This document shows, in pieces, positions 4,701-34,700 of a DNA stretch of 64,000 nucleotides. This DNA is from Bolinopsis microptera (taxonomy: Eukaryota; Ctenophora; Tentaculata; Lobata; Bolinopsidae): NCBI RefSeq assembly GCF_026151205.1, contig NC_087083.1:8429460-8493459 (forward strand), written 5' to 3'. The notes below the pieces were generated by a model. That model saw only the letters and a program-made list of their open reading frames with translations. It was not told the DNA's origin and made no database searches. A program made the position numbers and the translations under genes. The first letter of the stretch is position 1, and each line of letters starts with the position of its first letter.

Positions 4701-7700
4701 TGCTTTTTTAGCCAGTTTTCAACTTTCCTTCGTCTCTTGTTGTCTCTCCTTTTGAAGTTTGCAGATTTCTTATCACACAGATTTTTGAGTATATCCTTAG
4801 TTTTTCTAGGCCAGGCTTTCCATTTAGTAGGACACTGCATTTTGAGGAATGAAAGCTTATTGTCGAAATGTGATTGGAGGGATTTGAAATCCTTTCCAGG
4901 GAGTGGTTCAAGGTTAAAATGGGATTTGCTCACTTTCTCTGACAAGATCCTGACGATGTTGACTTTTCTAGTGATTGCAAGTCCAAGCATTTTACTTTCG
5001 AGGTGTGAAAAATAAAGTAGCCTCTGAGGATGGGAATTCAGCGCCTGTGAACCCTTAATTCTAAGGGAAACAGGGGGCCTTTTGAGAGTAGTGCAATTTC
5101 TGAGGAAGGTGAGTCTCATTTTCTCAATCTGGAGTTTTCCAAGGTCTGAATATTCCCCGTAGTGCTTACTTAGTAAACTAGGCGATTTCGTGGGAGGCAC
5201 ACTGGGTTGGGATATACCAGTGTCATCAGAAATATTCATACTTGACATCATAAGGTTCCATGTAGTTCCGCGAGGGATTAAAGATAGGAGAGTTAGAATT
5301 AACCCAAATATCAGGGACACGAATGACTACTCCAGGATTTAAGAAACTAAACTTTCAACACTGAAAACATTCAGATTCTTGCCAAATATATTTCGATTGT
5401 AGTCATCTCCAGTGACATTGAACCTAAAAAATGTTAAAAGGTTAGTGAAACTCAAACCGTTACAAAATTAAGAATCCGAAAAAGGTAAAAAGATCATATT
5501 AAGGTTTATGGAATATAGGTAATCCAAAGGGATTGACAGTATTAAGGCCAAAAGGTCTAAGAGAATTAAGCAAATGTATGTAGTTATTTTCTTTTACTTC
5601 AAGTGTACTGGGACTGCAATTCTCTAAAATAAAAGTTCTAAAAGTTTCATTAAAATCTGTATGTACTCCTAAACTCCTATAACTGTATAAGTTGATAATT
5701 TTACGTAGTTGTCATTGATCGGGGATCTGTCAATTACTAATTAACCAATTAAATAATTAGTAACTGTTGCAGTGGTGGGAGCTGGAGAGGGGAATGAAGG
5801 ACCAACCGACCCGGCCTCAGCAAAATACGGAAATGACCCCCTCGTAATAGTTGGAACTGCTGCAGTGGCAAGGAGGGGGGTAGCTGCTACTCTTACTTGC
5901 AAATATGAGTGAGTTACTGATTCAATATAGCTTTTGTCGTACTATTTTGATTTATTTTTAGCTTCAAAGTTCGGTATGAGATTAAACATTAAATGTAAAC
6001 ATCAATATAAATACACATTACACTCGAGTGCATGCTTAATTACAGAACAAGATATTTTAAATCTATTGATAAACCAGAAAGTTGGAAGGGCAGTTGGAGA
6101 TTTTGTGGACAGATGCGGACGGTGCCAAGGTTGGAGTTTACGGTTACGCTTCTAAAGATGCTTACACTCAGAAAACTGAAGATTTTGACGAAGCTACAAA
6201 CTCTCAACAAGGTTAACTTTATATATTTAACGTATGTAACGAGGTCTGATCGTCATCTTCTTACAGCGTATGTAATATTATTATTAGGTTCAAATCTTTC
6301 TGAGATGAGAATTGAGAGCTGATCAAAATTCAAACAGTACATCTTTCTAGCTAGCTTTCAACGATGGTCAATTTTTACTTAAATAGACAGAAATATTATA
6401 GTAATGACGGCTTTAATTAAGGTCTATTAAAATGTGAGAATGTAATATCATGTTTTGTCAGGAATACTGATAATCCACGCCAACAAAGTCGTATCCACAA
6501 CCTCCTTCAAGTGCGAGGTGGGAGCTGGAGCAGTGGACTCTCGTCGCTTACCACCACCAACCAAACTAGAACTACGAGTATACGGTAAGGTTTCTTCGCT
6601 TACCACCGCCAACCAAACTAGAACTACGAGTATACGGTAAGGTTTCTTCGCTTACCACCACCAACCAAACTTTTAAGGCCACCCAATCTCGAACTCCACT
6701 CAGAATACCGATATATCTCAAAATGTACCTCATCAAGTTATTCAGTTATACACATATGTAGGCTACTTCGTTAACAAAAGCTTTTTGTTTCGAACTTCTC
6801 TTGCTGGAAGGTTACTAAGCCAGTAAGTCTCATAGATTTGCTAATTTTAACTTTTACCACGTATACACTAATCTAATGAGCTTACCGGCATTGATTATTA
6901 ATGTAAACGTTGTTAATAATGATCTGTCCTTTCTATTCGATTGTTAATGTTTGTCTAGTAAGCAAATTTTCCAATCACTTAATTGTTCACATGATAATTT
7001 AATTGGCCAGTAACTCCAGTCTGATAACTATTGATAGAAAGGCCATAATCTTTTACCAGCCCTCCAATAAATAAATCCACTTTCTAGTTGTATTTTATAT
7101 CCTCGAATTACACAATAAGAAATGAAATTAACGTATTAGCGTATAATTAGTGATGTGATCCATGGATTGAATATAATTGACCTAGAAATGGGCTAGATCT
7201 GGGGTAAAGTTCATATGACAACTCTGCACACAGAAGCTACAAATTAAGAAGTGAACATGTTTTAAATTGAGACAATGTATTGACTGGTTATAAAATGTTA
7301 AATCGATTAATAATATAATACTTCAGAATACAACAAATTACTCAATATTATTACCAAAGTATTTCGCAACAGCGAACAAGTACTCAATCTTTGTTGGGTA
7401 TGTCGTGTAGCATCCTTGAAGCATCAGCAAGGACTTCTGATATCAGGTTCTGAGTCGCCGACAGGGGTTGTTCTGCAGCCTTCCTCTTGAGCGTTGTAAG
7501 GAGTTCGAGTCTCTGTGGGGTAGCCAGATCTGAATCGTGGTTGTGTGGTTTACTTCCAAGGGAAAGATTGTTGTCTGTGAGAGCGAGATAGCACTTGGCA
7601 GGACATTTAAGGGATTTGTTCTTCTGGCAACGCCAAGCAGAGGAGAGGACGGTGTCATCATTTTTCTTGCGGCTGTAGATATATCCGTCAGAATCAAGCA

Positions 7701-31700: not shown

Positions 31701-34700
31701 TATGGTAGTGTTACTATGGTAACATTACCTTATATTATGGTAGTGTTACTATGGTAAAATATCACTATAAATGAATAAATCACCTCCCTCCACACTCCAG
31801 ATTGATTGTGTCCACTGCCAACATTATCAACACGTGGGTCTCGCTGGTCAGTGAGAATTTCAAGCGAGCCTTCTCTTATGCGGCTATAAAAGTGAAAAAG
31901 GAAGCTGCTGCCATGTCATCTTCTGTTCATCTATACGATGGCTGGATGATCGATGTAAGACCTTATATTTCTTCCCTTTTGAAAATAAATTTCAATTTAA
32001 AAGTAGGCACTAAGCGTCGGTAGAACTAGAAAATAAATTAATCCTCGAAAAGTTGATTTTTAAATTATCCATTCATCACTGGTTTTTGTTAATGCTAACT
32101 AATTCAACGACAAGTGCAGCTTTTTCTGGAGATTAATGTTCTCCTTTTTCTTTATTCTTGCTGATTAGATAATATGAGAATTTAATGTTTTCCCTTGCTC
32201 CTTAATCTTGATACTTTCAGATTAGAGCTAACAACTACGTACAGACCAGCTTCATGTGGACAATGCAGAACCTTCTCTTCCCCTCCACTACGCAGAGTGA
32301 CATCATCAGGTACGTATTTGATTATTTATACGTATTTTATAAAGTAATTTTGTATCTTACGCTCTTGTTTTTAGGTCTGAATACTGGTGGGGATGTAAAC
32401 AGTGAGCCATATTATAAGCCAAAATACCACATTTCAGTCCGCTAGCTTGGGTCGATCTGCCGCACAACTCCACCATACCAGGAGAGACACAGTACATCAC
32501 AGTCAACTTCACTTCATCTGAACCGGTAATTGCTGTTTCACTAATAAGTTAAAAAGCTCAATCTCCGTTTCTATTCTAATTTGTATCCATTAAAGCATTA
32601 ACCGTGCTATTCGTTCTAAAAGAATTTTTAAAAACATTATCAAACTTACATGTCAATCTCTTAAATTGTCTGGATCGAATTTTTTTACATTTAGCAAAAA
32701 AATGTGTTTGATTTTTTCAATATTTAGTTGAACAAAATGCGCCATTATGCATGCGGAGTCTTCCACTTAGGAAAGTGGAAAAACGGTAAGATGCTGCAGC
32801 CAAGAAAGATGCAAAACTAAAATCATTTTAAAAAGATACTAAAATAAAAGGAAACAACCTTAAACGGAGAATAAAAACTTGCTAAAACACTCCTAAACTC
32901 TCTCAGTACCGCTAACATTCCGCTTTAAAATGAATAACTTTATAAATAAATAGCTCAAAAAATGCTATCAAGTAGACAAATTAACTTCTTTGTCAGATAG
33001 GCTATACTCAATACTTCAATAGCACTAGTAATGCCAAACTGATGAAAGTTTATCCCAGCTTTTTAACCGTTATTAGACAAAATGGATGTTTTTATTGAAT
33101 GATACAATTTCTTGGATATTCGACTTATATCGCAGAGCTGTTAACAAATTAACAAATTAACAAATTAAACAAGGCTCCCAACAGTGTTGAATAAATTTCT
33201 AACAGTATCATTTATTGCACAGAAAAGTTGAATGAGGCAGAGTCACCAGATTGGTCTAGGGGATCGTGTGACCACGTGACTGTAGAACATGACTACCAGA
33301 GCGTTATCTGTCAGTGTTCCTCCTGGAAGATGTTCTTAGCTGTTACTCAGGTATATTTAATGTTTTACTCAGGTTTATTTAATTGTTTACTTAGGTATAT
33401 TTAAACGTTTACTCAGGTCTATTTAATTGTTTACTCAGGTCTATTTAATTGTTTACTCAGGTTTATTTTGAAGTAGAATCATAACTCGATTGTTTTGTGA
33501 GTTGTTGTTGAGTTGATGTCCAATTTTTGGTCTTCTTAACTATTACCATTCATAGAGGAAAGAACTAAATCCGCTAGAACTCACATTATTTGTTATTCAG
33601 CAGTAATATTAAAGTCACTATTGTGACGGTACATTAGAACTCGACAGAAACAAAGTGTGAAGGTCCTGAACGGAACCGCTCGGTTTCAGTTCCTTGTTTA
33701 ACACTGCCGTACAGCAAGGACATCCACCGGGTTATATATGACATGAGTAATATGCTTCAGACGAGAAACTACACGAGCGGATTGTGGGGAAACTTTACAG
33801 TTGGTACAGCAGCAACCTCCATGCTGTTACACGCTTACGATATTCTGGACATTGGAGCTATGATACCTCTAGCAGTGGTCTTTATACTTCTCGTCAAAGC
33901 TAGGTATACTAGGGCTTGCTTTATCAAACACAAGGGTTTTTGTTGTGTGTCCACTCAAAACGCTAGGAACCTTGAACATTTTTAACCTGTTTCGATTTGA
34001 GCATTGATCAAAACCTTCTGGCTGACGGGAGGACATTTTACTGGTACATATTAAATATTTATTGGCCTAAAATGTAAATAAAAATAAAAATCAAGCACCT
34101 CTCAAATCATATTTTTATTTTAAAATTCATAAGTTTATAACACTTCCATATAAGGTAATGTTACCATAGTAACACTTTACATTTACTCAGTACCCGGAGA
34201 CAGCCTCTGATGCAGTGCAGGATGCAGATATGTGTGGGTATGGTTGGCAGTCATCTCCTCTCCCTTCTCACCACTTACATGTTACCAGCTAACATCAGCT
34301 GTGTTTACATGGTCTATCTCAGTTAGTGTCACTATAAAATTTAAAATCTATTTTTATATTTTGATCATTTTTCGTTTATCAAAGCTCTATTTGGGATTAG
34401 AACTGTCAGTACGTCAATCGTGTCTTGTGCCATTTTTAGTGACCTTGTAAGATGGTCATTCAAGAAAAATTCAGTCATAACAGTGAAATTTTGATCGCGG
34501 AAACCTGAAATTTAAAAATTTCCTACCGATAGGACATATTCAAAACTTTCATTGCATCAAAGTTTTCTCCGGATATGCTGCTTCCAGCACCTTGATGGTG
34601 ACTTGTGTCACTCTTACCGACCTCACTGATTGGTCAATGGTCAAAATTCAGTCAAAACCGGAAATGTCAGTCAAGGAGTCGGCAGAAAAGCTTCTCTTCA

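Follow-up and report, generated by a model that had tools for sequence, protein, structure and literature searches.

Why should so many tandem repeats of a single gene begin or end at its exon-intron borders? The question is raised by a receptor gene of the ctenophore Bolinopsis microptera, contained in a 64-kb stretch of DNA (hereafter the window; positions 8,429,460 to 8,493,459 of contig NC_087083.1, assembly GCF_026151205.1, which totals 264.65 Mb in 232 contigs). The original prediction named eight arrays, in introns 4, 5, 6, 8, 9, 12, 16 and 27, as lying exactly at a splice border, and took position to be their common factor. We compared the array limits reported by Tandem Repeats Finder (TRF) with the borders of a rebuilt gene model and found seven of the eight at a border or no more than 15 bp from one, the eighth, in intron 9, being 27 bp away. 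Four of the eight cross a donor (introns 4, 8, 12 and 27). Our best reading is that repeats at such borders need no special attraction to splice sites in a repeat-rich genome.

The gene was rebuilt from splice signals and reading frames, independently of the original prediction. Exons 2-34 (33 exons, 32 introns) extend from 5773 to 41079 on the plus strand; exon 1 was not found, and the model begins at exon 2 (5773). All 32 introns are of the GT-AG type and the exons join into a single open frame of 2061 codons, including the terminal stop, which depends on use of the first donor in the array-bearing introns. The exon borders assumed in the original prediction were essentially right, and its intron numbers agree with ours.

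TRF reported 36 loci in the window, and 28 arrays of the receptor gene are not wholly exonic. The geometry of the eight named arrays, all on the plus strand, is directly observed. On the donor side, the array of intron 4 (52-bp unit, 2.5 copies, 6544-6671) covers the last 41 bp of exon 4 and crosses donor 6585, that of intron 12 (40-bp unit, 45 copies, 20259-22063) covers the last 25 bp of exon 12 and crosses donor 20284, and that of intron 27 (22-bp unit, 33343-33468) covers the last 8 bp of exon 27 and crosses donor 33351. Comparison of the array copies showed that in these three introns the repeated unit consists of the exon end and the donor, as had been proposed for all five donor-side arrays. 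The array of intron 8 (16-bp unit, 14 copies, 17625-17846) crosses donor 17627 by only 2 bp, and its copies share only the AG of the exon; in introns 8 and 27, AG/GT is present where one unit joins the next. The array of intron 5 (10182-10740) is built of 60 copies of the 9-bp unit GTTAGTGAG and holds 53 donor-like AGGTTAGT sites. Its TRF limits are 10197-10740, so that the TRF start lies 15 bp past donor 10182, and degenerate units bridge the gap. None of the five donor-type introns has its acceptor within the array; from array end to acceptor the distance is 169 to 3421 bp.

Three arrays had been described as ending at an acceptor, and this holds for two of them. The array of intron 6 (11300-16534), with units of 22, 54 and 76 bp where only the latter two had been listed, ends 1 bp short of the last intron base, 16535. 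That of intron 16 (22-bp unit, 3 copies, 27837-27903) ends 2 bp before 27905, just upstream of the acceptor AG. The CTCACT array of intron 9 (6-bp unit, 74 copies, 18191-18634) ends 27 bp before 18661 and so falls short of the border. Each of its flanks carries an 18-bp copy of the acceptor tract (18177-18194 and 18643-18660), as if the hexamer array had grown between two acceptor-tract copies. The remaining unit lengths stand as first given, except that the unit of intron 27 measures 22 bp and not 23 bp.

The arrays do not resemble one another. Nine unit queries from the eight introns gave no match outside their own array (9/9) in 316 kb, comprising the window and 252 kb from other contigs, at an E-value of 1e-3. 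This supports the earlier view that the units are unrelated among introns and that, as far as the sequences indicate, no single repeat spread within these 316 kb. Introner-like mobile introns would place the same sequence in many introns; here the units differ and have no copies in the DNA searched.

Splice-site scores and reading frames suggest how such arrays could be borne by the gene. Donors at which arrays start are not weak: the five average a score of 7.84, and the remaining 27 donors average 7.21. In introns 8 and 27 the first donor outscores every other copy, and in introns 4 and 12 it shares the top score. Splicing at any of the 13 later donors examined in introns 4, 8, 12 and 27 would shift the reading frame or run into a stop. 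On the acceptor side, none of the 264 upstream AGs in the array of intron 6 scores as high as the acceptor in use (on a matrix trained on this gene's 32 acceptors, array-bearing ones included), and AG is absent altogether from the arrays of introns 9 and 16. We propose that splicing acts as a filter, and the asymmetry between donors and acceptors fits such a filter: donor copies would be tolerated, acceptor copies would not.

We consider it probable that the arrays are ordinary minisatellites in a genome rich in them, some of them seeded by a chance duplication over an exon-intron border and then filtered. A tandem duplication would by chance land across a border and seed an array. Where the duplication covered a donor, use of the first copy would leave the exon unchanged and all further copies would be intronic; the array could grow freely inside the intron, and so would appear to begin with the exon end. 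Over an acceptor, the extra upstream AGs could be used, so that only arrays without a competing acceptor would survive, and the survivors would stop just before the AG. What we infer is that the first donor is used, that growth ran from the exon into the intron, and that selection did the filtering. In the receptor gene, four of the 28 arrays cross donors and none crosses an acceptor, which we count in favor of this explanation. Inside exons, only units in multiples of three would be expected to survive. Three TRF loci of the gene are wholly exonic, and their best-scoring units (30, 15 and 27 bp) are all divisible by three; they include 18 copies of a 30-bp unit in exon 11 (19145-19694, plus strand) and 47 copies of a 15-bp unit in exon 20 (28978-29716, plus strand).

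How far would chance bring arrays to splice sites? Since the genome is dense in minisatellites and 23 of the 32 introns of the receptor gene are shorter than 600 bp, an array will often lie near a splice site by chance. We placed the 28 arrays freely, allowing long arrays to overlap exons by up to half. Donors were overlapped by 4 arrays against 1.82 expected (p=0.098) and acceptors by 0 against 1.60. There was no excess within 2 bp of any splice site (6 against 3.44 expected, p=0.11) or within 5 bp (p=0.13); within 15 bp there were 8 against 4.16 (p=0.037). When every array was shuffled only inside its own intron, no excess appeared at 2 bp (p=0.70), 15 bp (p=0.45) or 30 bp (p=0.26).

DNA from elsewhere in the genome was examined in the 252-kb set, which includes a 202-kb genome sample. 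This sample contains 118 TRF loci, the same array density as in the window, and about 11% of it lies in arrays. Exons were called with a predictor trained on this gene's exons and one nested open frame, which is small and noisy: at threshold 25 it made 44 predictions in the gene region, 22 of them exact out of 32, and in the 202-kb sample it called 143 exons compared with 64 in the reversed sequence (a control made for the 202-kb set). Exons lying at least 35% inside arrays and arrays with units below 6 bp were left out of the 252-kb count, and 154 arrays were kept. At thresholds 22, 25 and 28, arrays straddled donors 6, 3 and 3 times against 2.86, 2.30 and 1.71 expected, with no significant excess (p=0.07, 0.40 and 0.25), the expectation being a seed-length null, that is, the expected frequency with which the first unit covers a donor. 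Acceptors were straddled once at each threshold (2.88, 2.33 and 1.72 expected). Arrays abutting donors numbered 1, 1 and 0 and those abutting acceptors 2, 2 and 2, each against 1.31, 1.06 and 0.79 expected. When the arrays were shifted relative to the predicted exons of the 202-kb part, no excess emerged, and straddles were fewer than under the null. Donor motifs in the units of 114 sampled arrays were tested at six score thresholds, none of which gave a significant excess. Because the donor, acceptor and abutting counts and the shift test show no significant excess, we see no strong genome-wide pull of arrays to splice sites; given the small sample and the noisy predictor, a two- to three-fold effect would be compatible with these data.

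The arrangement itself is not confined to the receptor gene, since donor or acceptor cases were found at five sampled loci. At threshold 25 the donor straddles are at L004, L006 and L012 5909-5946, the last of these known from the predictor alone. The L006 array (7570-8624) is at the donor of an EF-hand-like exon (Pfam 0.00099, below the cut-off), and the L004 array (2397-2503) at that of a predicted exon for which Pfam gave no match. Two further arrays, at L010 and L014, were spotted by eye and are outside the threshold-25 list: the L010 array (7829-7956) is at the donor of a GPCR (G protein-coupled receptor)-like exon (Pfam 0.006, below the cut-off), while the L014 array starts at 6638, 6 bp behind donor 6632 of an exon matching NAD_binding_4 (Pfam 1.2e-8). 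Among ten sampled arrays inspected by eye, those of L006 and L010 were judged to follow coding exons. On the acceptor side, the L015 array (4884-4916, 2.1 copies of 16 bp) ends just before the acceptor AG of an exon that matches Pfam Rdx (3e-6). The sole acceptor straddle in the sample is at L012 7861-8141, which resembles a retroelement.

Several results weigh against chance seeding followed by filtering. Ten arrays lie within 30 bp of a splice site where free placement leads us to expect 4.95 (p=0.012). Under the seed-length null, 4 donor straddles in the gene compare with 1.05 expected (p=0.014), roughly a fourfold excess, and counting intron 5 as a fifth case lowers the p-value to 0.002; with donors and acceptors pooled, the values are 0.098 for four cases and 0.027 for five. 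This null was adopted after the free-placement result, since free placement allows long arrays to overlap exons, so these p-values are post hoc, and chance accounts for the donor excess and the nearness to splice sites only if the gene was picked after the fact. At threshold 22, the loosest, the 252-kb count also leans toward an excess of donor straddling. In intron 5, 53 later donors score at least as high as the first, so score does not predict first-donor use there, and four of the seven later donors checked keep the frame open. The claim that position is what generally unites the arrays finds some backing in the 30-bp count and in donor straddling within the gene, but none in shuffling within introns and no significant backing in the 252-kb sample.

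Alternatively, donors could be true hotspots, some feature of the border (transcription-linked breaks, R-loops or the AGGT itself) starting tandem duplication more often than elsewhere in introns. Besides the four or five of 28 gene arrays that cross or start at a donor, the 10 of 28 within 30 bp of a splice site and the lean at threshold 22, donor-like sites are slightly more frequent in sampled units than in genomic windows (at score 6, 19 compared with 14.5, each of 114; p=0.13). However, outside the gene no test reached significance, acceptors show no straddling excess and abutting arrays are near expectation. We regard hotspots as possible but unlikely. Slightly less likely still is the broader proposition that splice donors are preferred birthplaces of minisatellites in this animal, with introns lengthening inward from the donor, a ban on new AGs shaping the acceptor-side arrays and several independent events falling in one gene.

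The original prediction also suggested that repeats here may be tolerated or selected through a reinforcing effect on splicing; in the form weighed here, repeated donors or acceptors would help long introns to be spliced and the arrays would be retained for that. Introns 5 and 12 do hold dozens of intact donor-like copies (53 AGGTTAGT and 42 AAGGTTT, respectively), an observation that homogenization of the arrays also explains. Against this proposal, the donors concerned are no weaker than others, none of the 13 later donors checked in introns 4, 8, 12 and 27 is usable in frame, and two of the array-bearing introns are short (intron 16, 268 bp; intron 27, 287 bp). We consider reinforcement highly improbable. 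No better placed is the Rogers model, in which introns arise when exon pieces carrying AGGT are duplicated in tandem: the AG/GT at the unit join of introns 8 and 27 fits it, but with the acceptor outside the array in all five donor-type introns the unit supplied at most one splice site, and in none of them do both sites come from unit copies.

Tandem repeats across exon-intron borders have been called 'mirages' in lancelets, for which Canestro 2002 is reportedly the source paper. In both cases the repeated unit spans the border (here in four of the eight arrays by TRF) and units differ between loci (here in all nine unit queries). Lancelet mirages are described in Adh3, globins (BflGb6 and BflGb9), troponin C and PGBD5, vary in unit length, often carry AG/GT signals in their copies and are said not to disturb splicing (PMC3087553, PMC3902484). 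From their sequence, the border-spanning arrays of the ctenophore gene appear to be of this kind already in print, and stand out by how many such events a single gene holds. They differ from mirages in that four introns of a single gene are crossed and three more arrays lie within 15 bp of a border, in copy number, which reaches 45 in intron 12 and 60 in intron 5, and in that only donors are crossed, whereas the lancelet globin paper shows both sides. Intron gain from AGGT tandem duplication (Rogers; potato RdRp; 24-bp repeats of fission yeast; PMC4974935) is likewise a tandem duplication over or near splice signals, with AG/GT in some units; here, however, the acceptors lie outside the arrays, which add length to introns already present, and no case of a new intron is seen. 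Human segmental duplications also have minisatellites at exon-intron borders, variable internal tandem repeats that alter gene structure (PMC2812944). The human cases vary among recent paralogues and have transcript support, whereas here a single copy is known from sequence alone.

The product of the joined exons has immunoglobulin (Ig) domains near its N-terminal end. The Ig_3 match (residues 358-440, Pfam 3.6e-13) spans the intron 10 junction, as calculated from the gene model. The V-set match (residues 270-342) spans the intron 8 junction and has a whole-protein E-value of 1.1e-6, no single stretch passing alone. The Pfam search gave no match in the C-terminal part, which presumably resembles a seven-helix receptor of adhesion type, although we claim no class for it. 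The coding minisatellites of exons 11 and 20 encode acidic Gly/Ala/Asp-rich and Asp/Ala-rich stretches of the same protein. Within intron 4, on the minus strand, an open frame of 391 amino acids (8223-9398; Pfam 7tm_1, 6.9e-16) is seemingly an intronless GPCR gene nested opposite the receptor gene. Intron 15 contains a TSP_1 match (a thrombospondin type 1 stretch; 24434-24670, 5.4e-12), also on the minus strand opposite the gene, and 2.5 copies of a 405-bp unit that are approximately 99% alike (25928-26937).

Other repeats of the window are of different form. In intron 33, inverted ends of approximately 633 bp (36580-37212 and 40277-40909, 99.8% alike) enclose a DNA-transposon-like element. 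Near-identical copies (99.6-99.8%) of one stretch occur at 1966-2519, 5284-5674 and 48613-49166. The first overlaps open frames at 2180-4718 that resemble a Penelope-type retroelement; their GIY-YIG match is weak (E-value 0.013, below the cut-off). A direct repeat of 691 bp (51632-52322 and 59364-60054, 99.4% alike) has its copies 7.7 kb apart.

If chance seeding and filtering by splicing is correct, the arrays would reveal where a splice junction can bear duplication: donors could be copied dozens of times, acceptors could not gain a competing AG. The receptor gene would then be a natural test, holding frame-breaking donor copies in introns 4, 8, 12 and 27 and frame-keeping ones in intron 5. 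Should donors instead prove to be hotspots genome-wide, they would name a directly testable source of intron lengthening.

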